Assembly (NCBI RefSeq): GCF_000307105.1 | Contig: NC_018645.1 | Coordinates: forward strand, 5,032,001 to 5,096,000 | Source: Desulfobacula toluolica Tol2 | Lineage (GTDB): Bacteria; Desulfobacterota; Desulfobacteria; Desulfobacterales; Desulfobacteraceae | DNA: 64,000 nt | Reading direction: 5' to 3' | In this document: positions 6,803 to 29,352 of the stretch, piece after piece | Layout of the letters: every line of letters begins with the position of its first letter | How positions within the stretch are numbered: position 1 is the stretch's first letter | Program-made: the position numbers and the translations under genes | The notes under the pieces: model-generated | What the model saw: the letters and a program-made list of their open reading frames with translations, nothing else | Databases searched by the model: none | What the model was told of the DNA's origin: nothing

Positions 6803-7618
6803 ATGATAAACACACCCTCTATTTTTGTAAACGAAACCTTTGGTCAGATCAGGGTAATTATGCAGGGCGGAGAACCTTGGTTTGTGGCAAAGGATGTCTG
6901 TGACGTATTGGGAATCCGAACTGATACAATTCCTGTTATCCTGGATTCCGACGAATATTCTAATACCAATAGTATTGGGGTTAGGATTTCAGGAACAAAC
7001 CGCGGCATGACAATCGTTTCTGAGCCCGGTCTATATGGTCTTATCATAAAATCCAGGAAACCGGGAGCCAATGAATTTAAACGATGGATCACTCATGAAG
7101 TTATTCCTTCAGTCCGGAAATATGGGTTTTATGGGACTGATAACTTCATTGAAAACGCCTTGGTTGATCCGTCCAACATGATCACAATCCTTGAAAGATA
7201 TCGAGATGAAAGACAGCAACGCCGAATAGCAGAACAACAACGGGATTGTGCCGTTGCCTCAAAAGCTTGGATAAGCCGCAAACGTGAAGCTACAGCAATG
7301 AACACAGCGTCCAGACTCAGCAAGGAAAACACTCAACTAAAAGAGCAAATAGGAGATTCCAAGACCTGGAAACAGGCCCGGTCCATCCCTTGGCTGGCTG
7401 ATTTTTTCAACCTGGATAGAACGGACTATATCCAAATTGGCAAACGCCTTACAAAAGAATCAAAGTCTTTGGGATATGAAATCCGGGAGATCCCACATTC
7501 AAAATATGGGACAGTCAAAGCCTACCATAAAGATGTCATTGAACATTTCCGGCATAAGCTGATTGAAGACCTAAATTTGATGAAGAAATACCGGAAATCC
7601 ACGGGAAGGTGCAAATAA
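6803..7618 (+). CDS. BRO-N domain protein (phage antirepressor-like)
   Basis: Encodes 271 residues with AGGAGGGG just upstream of ATG 6803. Residues about 1-110 match the BRO/KilA N-terminal DNA-binding domain: FVNETFGQIRVI...GEPWFVAKDVCDVLGI, then VSEPGLYGLIIKSRKPGANE and FKRWITHEVIPSVRKYG. A coiled-coil segment follows (about 125-195). The C-terminal part (WLADFF...DYIQIGKRLTKESKSLG) resembles a second small DNA-binding module. BRO proteins are usual in temperate phages and large DNA viruses, often as antirepressors. The stop overlaps the next ATG (TAATG). Confidence 0.88.
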   Translation: MINTPSIFVNETFGQIRVIMQGGEPWFVAKDVCDVLGIRTDTIPVILDSDEYSNTNSIGVRISGTNRGMTIVSEPGLYGLIIKSRKPGANEFKRWITHEVIPSVRKYGFYGTDNFIENALVDPSNMITILERYRDERQQRRIAEQQRDCAVASKAWISRKREATAMNTASRLSKENTQLKEQIGDSKTWKQARSIPWLADFFNLDRTDYIQIGKRLTKESKSLGYEIREIPHSKYGTVKAYHKDVIEHFRHKLIEDLNLMKKYRKSTGRCK

Positions 7619-11258: not shown

Positions 11259-13616
11259 ATGGAATTTGAGTTAAAAAACAAGCTTTATCTTTCCGGTATG
11301 AAACCAGAAACCCGGAGAGAGATCCGGGCCAAGTTGACAATGCCGAATCCGAAATTTCAGGAAGCGGAAAAAATGGGCCGGGCCACCTGGGATCTGGAAC
11401 GGCAGTTGAAATTTTACCAGGATGATGAAGACACCCTGATTTGTCCCCGTGGTGCAGCCAGGCAAATTTATATGCTTTGTCAACGGCATGGTGAAGATAT
11501 CCATATCATTGACGATCGGCGAACCCTGAAACCGGTTGATTTTACTTTTTATGGATCACTCAGGCCGTTACAGCAGCCAGCAGTTGAGAATGTTCTATCA
11601 AAAGACTTCGGTCTCCTGGAAGCCGGGACCGGAGCCGGGAAAACGGTCATGGGGTTATACTTGATTGCCGACAGAAAACAGCCAGCGTTAATTGTGGTGC
11701 ATACCAAAGAACTGTTGAATCAATGGCTTGACCGGATTGAACAGTTTCTGAAGATCCCCAGGGCAGATATCGGGGTCATCGGTGGCGGTAAGTTCAAGAT
11801 CAGGGACCGGATCACGGTTGCTATGATCCAGACCCTTGTGAAAAAAGTTGACCAGGTGGTACCTCATATCGGGTATCTTGTTCTGGATGAATGTTTCCCA
11901 GCAGGCGTTTTAATAAGTACACCAACCGGACAAATAAAAATTCAAGCTATCCGAGTCGGGGATAAGGTCAAAGGTTATGACCACCAGACAAACCAAGTGG
12001 TGGATACAACCGTTCGTCATGTTTTTAGACGAAAAGCCAGAACTCTTTGCCGGGTACTTTTCAATGATGGAACCACACTGATTTGTACACCAGGCCACCC
12101 TTTCTTTAACGGGGAGAGATATATTCCCGCGGTTGAATTGCAAAAAAAACAGATTGTATGGAGGTATCGGAATGAAAATTCTAACTGTGCCATGTGCAGT
12201 ATGCGGAAAATTGATTCAGTGCAAGGGGAGCAAACCATGGCGGACATCCCTGGAACAAGCAAAAGCAGGCCGGGCGTGTTGTTCTCAAGAGTGTGTGAAT
12301 GTTCTAAAACAAGCCGGATACAGGAAGGGCGGAGAATTTCTTGCGAAATACAATCGGAATCAAGGCCGTGTGAACAAAATTATAAACAATCCAATGAAGA
12401 ATCCCAAAGCGGTTGCCAATATGCTGAAGGCGAAACGGAAAAACGGAACGTTAAGGATTTGTCCGAACAACAGGGGTGGAAATGGGAAGGGGCCGACAAA
12501 ACCTCAGAAAGACCTTGCAATGGCTTTAGGATGGCAGATGGAGTTTCCAGTCAAGACAGCCCCACATATACCAAAGGGTTCACGCCGGGCATGGTTGGGA
12601 GAACGCAGCCTTCCGACCTGTTACAAACTGGATATTGCAAATCCGGAACTCAAAATAGGTGTAGAGATAGACGGGATCAGCCATACAGGAAAAAGGCGAA
12701 AACTCGATCAAAAGAAAAATGCACATTTGAAAAGCTTAGGGTGGCAAGTGTTGAGATTATCGAACAAACAAGTGGAGGCGGATTTGGCGGGGTGTGTCCG
12801 GACGGTCATGTCTACAATATAGAAACCGGGACCGGCAATTATTTTGCTGGCGATATACTTGTCCACAATTGCCACCGGGCACCTGCCATGCAGTATGTCA
12901 AAACTATTGAACAGTTCGATTGTAAATACATGACCGGATTGACGGCAACGCCCTGGAGAAGGGACGGTTTGTCAAAAGTTATCTTCTGGCATATCGGCGA
13001 TGTGACCGGCCGGATTGATAAAGCGGATCTGTTAAAAAACGGGAATCTTTGCCCGGCTGAAGTCCATTGGATTAAGACCGAGTTTGACACCACAGTAAAT
13101 GCAAGCGACGATTATTCAAAGGCCCTGTCTGAACTGACAGAGGATCATGACAGAAACCGGCTTATCTGTGATACCGTAGCCAAACATGATGGTACCGGGA
13201 TCAGTCTTATCCTTTCTGACCGAAAAAGCCATTGCCAGGTCCTCCATGACATCATGTCCCAGGAAAACGGTATCAAGTCCGAAGTCTTAACCGGTTCCAC
13301 TTCTCCCAGGGAACGGGAAAGAATTATTGAAGATCTGCAGCAAGGACAATGCAGATACCTGATTGCAACCGGCCAGCTTATTGGAGAGGGCTTTGACCTG
13401 CCCGGTATATCTTCCGTATTCCTGGGGACCCCGGTCAAATTCTCAGGGCGGCTTATTCAATATATCGGTCGGGCTTTACGTTCGGCACCAGGTAAGGACA
13501 AGGCTATTATCTATGATTTTGTGGATATGTTGAATCCTGTCTTCACCGCATCAGCAAAAGCCAGAGTTTCAACATATGAGAATCAGGGGATCGTCTCCTG
13601 TAAACATGCAGCATAA
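11259..13616 (+). CDS. SF2 (DEAD/DEAH-like) helicase interrupted by an intein
   Basis: The frame is 785 codons without a stop. The N-extein (residues 1-211) holds a Walker A (EAGTGAGKTVMG, about 125) and ends at LVLDE. The C-extein resumes at CHRAPAMQ, so the Walker B/DECH box is split by an insertion of 326 residues (11892-12869). The C-extein (248 residues) has TGLTATPWRRDG (motif III) and RLIQYIGRALRSAPGKD (motif VI). The spliced product would be about 459 residues, a normal length for phage SF2 helicases of the UvsW/RAD3-like type. Helicase activity requires removal of the insert, because the insert lies inside motif II. GGAAGG precedes the start by about nine bases. Confidence 0.9.
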   Translation: MEFELKNKLYLSGMKPETRREIRAKLTMPNPKFQEAEKMGRATWDLERQLKFYQDDEDTLICPRGAARQIYMLCQRHGEDIHIIDDRRTLKPVDFTFYGSLRPLQQPAVENVLSKDFGLLEAGTGAGKTVMGLYLIADRKQPALIVVHTKELLNQWLDRIEQFLKIPRADIGVIGGGKFKIRDRITVAMIQTLVKKVDQVVPHIGYLVLDECFPAGVLISTPTGQIKIQAIRVGDKVKGYDHQTNQVVDTTVRHVFRRKARTLCRVLFNDGTTLICTPGHPFFNGERYIPAVELQKKQIVWRYRNENSNCAMCSMRKIDSVQGEQTMADIPGTSKSRPGVLFSRVCECSKTSRIQEGRRISCEIQSESRPCEQNYKQSNEESQSGCQYAEGETEKRNVKDLSEQQGWKWEGADKTSERPCNGFRMADGVSSQDSPTYTKGFTPGMVGRTQPSDLLQTGYCKSGTQNRCRDRRDQPYRKKAKTRSKEKCTFEKLRVASVEIIEQTSGGGFGGVCPDGHVYNIETGTGNYFAGDILVHNCHRAPAMQYVKTIEQFDCKYMTGLTATPWRRDGLSKVIFWHIGDVTGRIDKADLLKNGNLCPAEVHWIKTEFDTTVNASDDYSKALSELTEDHDRNRLICDTVAKHDGTGISLILSDRKSHCQVLHDIMSQENGIKSEVLTGSTSPRERERIIEDLQQGQCRYLIATGQLIGEGFDLPGISSVFLGTPVKFSGRLIQYIGRALRSAPGKDKAIIYDFVDMLNPVFTASAKARVSTYENQGIVSCKHAA
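11892..12869 (+). mobile_element. Intein in the helicase DECH box
   Basis: The insertion begins with Cys1 (CFPAGVLISTPTGQIKIQAI, block A). It has block B with the TxxH motif in GTTLICTPGHPFF. It ends with block F/G sequences HVYNIETGTGNYFAGDILVHN, followed by Cys+1 of the extein. All four canonical splicing residues (Cys1, His in block B, terminal Asn, Cys+1) and the penultimate His are present, so it should splice. The host frame between about 12172 and 12735 looks unlike protein: Ser, Gln, Glu, Lys, Arg and Cys rich, with few hydrophobic clusters. That stretch is read productively in the +1 frame (endonuclease 12172-12822). Confidence 0.93.
12172..12822 (+). CDS. Out-of-frame homing endonuclease nested in the intein (Vsr/EDxHD-like)
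   Basis: Encodes 216 residues in the +1 frame relative to the helicase. GGAGG sits seven bases before ATG 12172, inside the intein coding sequence. The N-terminus has a zinc-knuckle-like cysteine set (CAVCGKLIQCKG, then CCSQEC). A basic DNA-binding middle follows. The C-terminal catalytic domain (about 135-205) contains YKLDIANPELKIGVEIDG, a His two residues further on (ISH), an Asp in KLDQKKN and LKSLGWQVLRLSNKQV. This is the pattern of Vsr/PD-(D/E)XK-fold endonucleases and fits the E, D, x, H, D signature described for intein-associated free-standing endonucleases. The frame ends with TAG 12820, within bases that also encode the intein block F. Confidence 0.88.
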   Translation: MKILTVPCAVCGKLIQCKGSKPWRTSLEQAKAGRACCSQECVNVLKQAGYRKGGEFLAKYNRNQGRVNKIINNPMKNPKAVANMLKAKRKNGTLRICPNNRGGNGKGPTKPQKDLAMALGWQMEFPVKTAPHIPKGSRRAWLGERSLPTCYKLDIANPELKIGVEIDGISHTGKRRKLDQKKNAHLKSLGWQVLRLSNKQVEADLAGCVRTVMSTI

Positions 13617-29100: not shown

Positions 29101-29352
29101 TGCTTTTATCAATTATCCCCATTCAGACCATTTAAATCCCAAATCCCAAAAACCCCTTGACACCCTGCCGGGAATCTAAGACAATAAAGACCTCTCAAAA
29201 CGATGACGGTGAACCGGGCCGTAAATCCGGTATATTAATTTGTATGAGCAAGTCCAAATATAATTGGGGTATGGTGCCGGGAATCCGAAAGGACCGGAAA
29301 GGCTTTCATCGGCCTTGAGACACCTAACCCCCATTCTGTTTTGGAGTTACAA
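29101..29352 (+). other. Leader region of the right-hand replication operon
   Basis: There is no CDS. A TTGACA (29157) could be a -35 box, but the -10 is poor. Two GC-rich hairpins are visible: CCGG...CCGG around 29217-29238, and CCGG-GAATCC-GAAA-GGA-CCGG with a GNRA-type loop around 29277-29300. They may form a structured 5' leader for the following operon. Confidence 0.35.

Follow-up and report, generated by a model that had tools for sequence, protein, structure and literature searches.

An out-of-frame DUF559 nuclease gene nested within a family of phage inteins

An intein and a nuclease gene were found to share the same nucleotides in the genome of Desulfobacula toluolica Tol2. The element lies in a stretch of 64,000 nucleotides (contig NC_018645.1, positions 5,032,001 to 5,096,000; hereafter, the window), in which a stop-free host reading frame of 785 residues (11259-13616, + strand) encodes a helicase that is interrupted by an intein, and a DUF559 nuclease is encoded over that intein in the +1 frame. 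The arrangement very probably represents a mobile intein, whose homing nuclease would be encoded by a gene of its own, overlapping the intein in another frame, and not by an intein domain.

Canonical class 1 inteins begin with Cys or Ser, carry a TxxH motif, end in His-Asn, and are followed by Cys, Ser, or Thr at position +1. All of these marks are present in the window (C1, TPGH, and VHN followed by Cys+1), and on sequence grounds 11892-12869 is a canonical intein, presumably of class 1, at the DE-C site (the hyphen marks the insertion point) of what we take to be motif II, or Walker B, of a prophage superfamily 2 (SF2) helicase. Pfam searches of the host protein revealed ResIII (8.2e-21) and Helicase_C (3.4e-15) domains, as well as an Intein_splicing match at residues 226-537 (9.1e-07, 29.2 bits), and two further profiles scored above their own cut-offs, PT-HINT at 28.7 bits (cut-off 27.7) and NCBIfam intein_Nterm at 24.9 bits (cut-off 24.5). 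The original prediction of a canonical intein in the DECH box was thus borne out by both the junctions and the profiles. In the AlphaFold2 (AF2) model of the intein, the predicted local distance difference test (pLDDT) was 96-98 for residues 1-90 and 90-98 for residues 281-326, compared to 44-65, with no secondary structure, for residues 101-280. The model gave 45 matches in the PDB at E ≤0.001, the top ones being inteins or intein-like domains. A Hint fold is therefore indicated by two confidently predicted halves, joined by a middle that is modeled as unstructured, and to which the earlier description of the host frame as translated noise is well suited.

The +1 open reading frame (ORF) extends over 229 residues from a TTG at 12133, or over 216 residues from an ATG at 12172, with its stop at 12820-12822; the ORF of 216 residues predicted at 12172-12822, and the GGAGG ascribed to it, were both located in the sequence. 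The nuclease comprises paired cysteines (C8, C11, C37, and C41), which may bind zinc, a helical region, and a C-terminal DUF559 domain with the motif E165-x-D167-G-x-S-H171 and D179. DUF559 (PF04480) matched the ORF at 8.5e-10 (38.9 bits, cut-off 20.6), and was found at E ≤0.001 in 36 of 37 aligned nuclease rows, the 37th row being host-frame sequence; E165, D167, H171, and D179 are kept in at least 90% of these rows. The AF2 model (pLDDT 90.6, predicted template modeling score 0.56) showed the I-Bth0305I catalytic domain (3r3p) as its top PDB fold match (Foldseek E 3.4e-3, probability 1.00), with template modeling scores of 0.56 on the target and 0.28 on the query. Sequence-profile matches in the PDB were 3hrl (7.3e-10) and, weakly, 3r3p (0.017), and in the alignment with 3r3p the E and G of the motif line up but the D and H do not. 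The label Vsr/EDxHD-like accordingly receives partial support: I-Bth0305I is the best fold match, although above E 0.001, but the sequence match is weak and the aligned active-site letters differ. DUF559 is the most fitting name for the enzyme, whose best fold neighbor is the EDxHD enzyme I-Bth0305I. Profile searches, proposed at the outset for both proteins, thus returned DUF559 for the nuclease and intein/Hint families for the host.

Relatives of the element were collected from several sources. A protein search of phage records yielded 40 records (37 Vibrio, 2 Corynebacterium, and 1 Pseudomonas), each with at least 80% of the query covered, and the matches lie under genes annotated as helicase, hypothetical, coil-containing, or P-loop hydrolase; the nuclease gene was unannotated at the match in all eight phage records whose gene tables were checked. 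Viral contigs contributed 3 loci with the window protein and 94 relatives with a closer nuclease alignment (A4), the best 80 of which were kept. A plasmid search gave partial matches in 60 records, and none of them reached 80% coverage of the query. Reading frames were scanned in 90 of 92 loci, near-copies included (the two others are L002, which resembles L003, and L004, which is the window's own locus). In 83 of the 90, the nuclease lies at +1 within a single unbroken host frame, with the +2 frame broken into 4-34 pieces in each. The nuclease frame measures at most 343 codons from stop to stop in the 90 loci, and is therefore too short to include the host protein. Five of seven loci found in a separate genome collection were nested as well.

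Clustering at 80% amino-acid identity reduced the sample to 67 clusters including the window, 62 of them nested. Both intein junctions were identified in 61 of the nested clusters, and in the 62nd (L029) the contig ends within the locus. Cys1 stands at DE or, in a few cases, right after DEAH, DEAQ, or DEAQR, and the intein ends in (H/S)N followed by Cys, Ser, or Thr. Among 56 aligned inteins, C1, V324, and N326 are invariant, and T66 and H69 are found in at least 90%. The host proteins of the 61 clusters matched Intein_splicing (58), ResIII (50), SNF2-rel (10), and the clamp loader family DNA_pol3_delta2 (6) in overlapping counts; the presence of several ATPase families among the hosts indicates a single intein family at the same motif of several ATPases. 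Where the junction was located, the nuclease stops 4 to 23 residues short of the end of the intein, save in L042 (L035, L080, L081, and L085, with misplaced or absent junctions, were excluded from these distances). In L042:3056-4106, the nuclease frame passes the intein end by 11 residues, and some extein codons are also dual-coding. By sequence, then, nesting of the nuclease out of frame is how this family is usually arranged, and no one-off.

The internal start and the translation of the nuclease are predicted from the sequences upstream of it. A Shine-Dalgarno sequence of at least 5 nucleotides precedes a nuclease-frame start in 32 of 67 clusters. Over the same stretch, the corresponding counts for the third frame and the host frame were 2 and 8 of 67. 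These counts support internal initiation. Alternatively, ribosomes in the helicase frame could shift into that of the nuclease and make a fusion of N-extein, N-terminal intein half, and nuclease, with no internal start. Such a route would require a constant offset, and the offset is indeed +1 in every nested locus, while 22 of the 67 clusters carry no Shine-Dalgarno sequence recognized by the rule applied. The GGAGG located 7 nucleotides before the ATG in the window, the excess of Shine-Dalgarno sequences over the third frame, and the occurrence of free-standing and split members as ORFs in their own right, with possible starts, argue against frameshifting, which is considered unlikely.

Stop codons are missing from the host frame over the nuclease. 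When the nuclease protein was held fixed and synonymous codons were drawn at the usage of the ORF itself, 10.7 host-frame stops were expected over the nuclease in the window, whereas none is present (probability of an open frame 1.3e-06). The 62 nested clusters comprise 14,672 codons, for which 703 host-frame stops were expected and 0 were observed; the five clusters that are not fully open (L040, L064, L066, L075, and L079) are outside this count. In the third frame, 1271 stops were observed, compared to 1150 expected. Among the nested loci of bacterial genomes, four of five (L101 was left out) had 0 stops, with 50 expected. In contrast, six loci in which the nuclease is free-standing (three) or the intein is split (three) have 164 stops against 162 expected. 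Selection for an open host frame, as had been claimed, is thus evident in the overlap, and the same frame is unconstrained in loci outside it. Stop avoidance can also be followed at single codons. The conserved Tyr-Lys of the nuclease is encoded by TAC-AAR in 57, TAC-AGT in 1, and TAT in 2 of 60 nested clusters (two of the 62 lack the motif pattern), and in both TAT clusters the next codon makes TAT harmless in the host frame. Before AA, AG, or GA, the nuclease frame contains 112 TAC and 0 TAT codons, compared to 83 TAC and 174 TAT elsewhere in that frame, and to 126 TAC and 169 TAT before the same dinucleotides in the exteins of the same genes. The absence of TAT follows from the open host frame, and illustrates the stop count rather than testing it separately.

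In three of the loci (L064:2723-4660, L066:2795-5014, and L075:2504-4912), the N and C halves are encoded in separate ORFs, and the nuclease ORF overlaps both at +1. ResIII was detected in the N half of L064 and Helicase_C in the C half of L066, and judged by sequence the three are natural split inteins in SF2-type helicases. Their existence with the same nuclease family raises the question of whether the continuous frame is open but unused elsewhere, with a split intein made in practice from separate N and C pieces and the middle never translated. The split loci, however, carry 14, 23, and 33 stops between their halves, close to the 17, 20, and 30 expected, and the nested loci none, indicating that the frame is kept open only in loci with joined halves; an untranslated middle is thus very unlikely. 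In the window, the host frame is continuous, and the halves are not encoded as separate polypeptides, as they would be in a split intein or fractured gene.

The distribution of nucleotide changes was compared in 34 pairs, with each locus used once. In the nuclease core, changes per codon position of the nuclease frame were 0.252, 0.215, and 0.427 for positions 1, 2, and 3, and the amino-acid differences were 0.32 (nuclease frame) and 0.53 (host frame). Over the C-terminal splicing half, where the last 40 nuclease codons lie, the values fell to 0.186, 0.155, and 0.278, and the amino-acid differences to 0.26 (nuclease) and 0.38 (host), while nuclease-synonymous codon changes decreased from 0.230 in the core to 0.149 (z ~6, with kinship ignored). 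The patterns point to a middle in which the nuclease dominates the constraint, and to a C-terminal end that both proteins appear to constrain. The dual coding first proposed for the C-terminal splicing domain is upheld by this extra constraint, and the faster third position answers the concern that the nuclease frame might not be conserved in homologues.

A host-frame middle that forms a functional domain of its own, for example for DNA recognition, with dual coding over the full length, is similarly improbable. A Leu-Gln pair (residues 244-245) and residue L130 of the intein are kept in at least 90% of the 56 host-frame inteins; the pair, however, follows from the conserved nuclease Tyr-Lys encoded as TAC-AAR, the middle is predicted at pLDDT 44-65 without secondary structure, and the host frame diverges more than the nuclease frame. 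As a functional motif, the Leu-Gln was ruled out by the codon test. A dead or chance overlap in one genome, or the sequencing error that the original prediction had allowed for, can be practically dismissed, given the same +1 geometry in 62 clusters (named phages, viral contigs, and the window) and in the five nested loci of genome contigs, and E165, D167, H171, and D179 kept in at least 90% of the nuclease rows.

Mobility of the element was examined through empty alleles. In six related phage regions, five helicases, all of Vibrio phages, are intein-less and show a precise empty site (234P10, 141O35-1, 1.023.O, VchM-138, and 142E35-1). The sixth, in Vibrio phage K453 (L094:1034-4452), has a 150-residue mini-intein at the same helicase site, without the nuclease and followed by a gene for a T5orf172-domain endonuclease. 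The helicases of CP-T1 (with intein) and VchM-138 (without) differ in length by the 353-residue intein, and their flanks are 92-98% identical. Between K391 and 1.088.O, the intein DNA is 94% identical and the flanks 70-82%, and the greater likeness of the intein is evidence of horizontal spread. Within the genus of the host, an intein-less allele (L107) provides a precise empty site, DE-CHRAPAMQYVK, with a C-extein 78% identical. Three of the five intein-less phage alleles (L095, L096, and L097) read DEAH, compared to DECH in the intein-bearing ones, and the intein may therefore bring the +1 Cys with it.

These observations are consistent with the following mechanism. Ribosomes in the helicase frame would continue through the intein without interruption; its first ~90 and last ~48 residues would form the Hint domain around a disordered loop, and the intein would excise itself by the canonical chemistry of Cys1, TxxH, His-Asn, and Cys+1. 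Other ribosomes would start at the internal site before 12172, to give a free DUF559 nuclease, which would cut intein-less alleles at the codons around DE-CH, and recombination would copy the intein and its hidden gene into the cut. The host frame would stay free of stops because a stop would interrupt the helicase, which is presumably important to the phage, and the nuclease would supply most of the other constraint on the middle.

Several findings weigh against this account. Seven of the 90 loci (L040, L064, L066, L067, L075, L076, and L079; two are near-copies) and two of the seven in the separate genome collection are not nested, and the third of the clusters in which the Shine-Dalgarno rule found nothing has already been mentioned. 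The Intein_splicing score in the window lies below the curated cut-off of 35.8, Foldseek found no PDB match to the nuclease model at E 0.001 or better, and the cleavage site is placed from the insertion position alone. Third-frame stops exceed expectation by ~10%, and the codon model is therefore approximate.

The remaining non-nested forms may be stages of one process. L079:2654-4795, a clamp loader by Pfam, has 1 host-frame stop over the nuclease against 18.8 expected, and may be either on its way to a split intein or in decay. In L040:3459-5590, a separate nuclease gene lies upstream and overlaps the start of an intein-less helicase, the helicase frame being interrupted at the insertion site. 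In L102:3468-5533, a separate nuclease lies just upstream of an intein-less helicase that reads DES where nested hosts have DEC, and L105 carries a free nuclease but no visible helicase. A tree of 73 nucleases (unrooted, with 34 of 70 inner branches lacking resolution, and sampled with patterns from nested members) placed the split loci L064, L066, and L075 in one clade (support 100/100), L079 with nested L068 (100/90), L102 with L029 (99/86; nested as far as its contig reaches), and L040 with nested L033 and L099 (98/92). At the fewest, 5 state changes are needed, and the nested arrangement is likely ancestral. It is possible, although the proposal is tentative, that the nested nuclease is the widespread and probably ancestral state of one phage intein family and the birthplace of natural split inteins. 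The middle would serve as no more than a linker, lying across a gene that is maintained on other grounds, and a stop and a start in the overlap would yield a split intein with the nuclease bridging its halves. L079 would be at the one-stop stage, the L064, L066, and L075 clade would have completed the route, and in L040 and L102 the nuclease would have come to lie free beside an intein-less helicase.

Ordinary nuclease-containing inteins carry LAGLIDADG or HNH nucleases as in-frame domains. The present element resembles them in having a Hint splicing domain interrupted by nuclease information, and in its proposed homing, but its nuclease is not fused in frame between the splicing halves; it occupies the +1 frame and ends at a stop of its own. 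Dassa et al. reportedly described in 2009 "fractured genes", in which split inteins are accompanied by a free-standing EDxHD/Vsr-like nuclease. These share an unfused nuclease gene at the intein, and L064, L066, and L075 look alike, whereas the intein in the window is continuous and its nuclease is nested out of frame. The nuclease model's best fold match, the catalytic domain of I-Bth0305I, is listed as a mobile intron protein, with a sequence that matches only weakly and has other active-site letters; the enzyme is described among group I intron enzymes (PMC3943268). The CapR/EDxHD-Vsr-like homing nucleases of phage group II introns (PMC12350094) are likewise phage homing nucleases, with small domains at the N terminus and, at the C terminus, one with a distant relationship to EDxHD/Vsr, but they belong to introns and not inteins, and are compared here by description only.

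The closest precedent found is the ShiLan domain and the Pacc40 insert, out-of-frame HNH genes in phage DNA methylases whose distribution is read as homing (PMC11855218). They share a homing-type endonuclease gene in the other frame of an insert that is open in the host frame. They are described with no splicing motif or intein-like predicted structure, an HNH nuclease (less certain for Pacc40), and no detectable ribosome binding site; the window has intein junctions, the Hint fold, a DUF559 nuclease, and a dual-coding C-terminal splicing half, and with these does not belong to the ShiLan type. Among the entries listed in searches of open-licence papers, no intein with an out-of-frame nuclease appeared. 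Calling the nested overlap unusual thus holds for the literature searched, but not for the element's own family, where nesting prevails.

The features of the element are collected in Table 1. Ten neighboring proteins were scanned, and those with functional matches are phage-like (an anti-repressor, a replication initiation protein, a primase, a weakly matched D5-like regulator, and a terminase large subunit), for which reason the region is taken as a prophage in the 5.2 Mb single-contig genome. A match to the c4-2 small RNA family was detected at 29260-29340 (+, 57.3 bits), and the anti-repressor gene lies at 6803-7618. At Rfam gathering thresholds, a tRNA and the c4-2 match were the only matches in the window, with no intron match, and introns were equally absent from six further loci; a group I or group II intron was ruled out by these scans.

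Table 1. Coordinates of the intein, its host gene, and the overlapping nuclease gene in the window.
Feature	Position	Strand	Evidence
N-extein of SF2 (ResIII/DEAD) phage helicase, ending in DE of motif II	11259..11891	+	ORF, Pfam ResIII, intein-less allele DE-CHRAPAMQYVK
Complete host-frame intein, 326 residues, Cys1 to His-Asn, then Cys+1	11892..12869	+	ORF, Pfam, junctions
N-terminal splicing half, residues 1-90, including TPGH	11892..12161	+	AF2 block pLDDT 96-98, PDB intein matches
GGAGG Shine-Dalgarno-like site, 7 nucleotides before nuclease ATG	12160..12164	+	sequence; scored across clusters
Nuclease gene, +1 frame, 216 residues	12172..12822	+	Pfam, conserved residues, AF2 pLDDT 90.6, fold match
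Host-frame middle, intein residues ~95-278, open linker over nuclease gene, secondary structure not predicted	12174..12725	+	AF2, 0 stops
Conserved nuclease Tyr-Lys as TAC-AAA, read within Leu-Leu-Gln of host frame; TAT would be a host-frame stop	12622..12627	+	codon test
Dual-coding zone, C-terminal splicing half (residue 279 on) and nuclease end	12726..12819	+	codon-position changes, junctions, AF2
Nuclease stop and last intein residues (17 past last nuclease codon), ending LVHN	12820..12869	+	ORFs, junction
C-extein of helicase, Cys+1 to stop	12870..13616	+	ORF, Pfam, intein-less same-genus copies 78% and 70% identical

Across a diverse family in Vibrio, Pseudomonas, and Corynebacterium phages, and in uncultured viruses and genomes, the nuclease thus appears as a second gene over the intein. 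The family shows long-term dual coding with unusual clarity and has a built-in control, since the same gene loses the constraint outside the overlap, and it predicts genes that are missed by ordinary annotation. With continuous, one-stop, and split versions of one element at hand, the origin of split inteins, which are widely used tools, would become directly testable.

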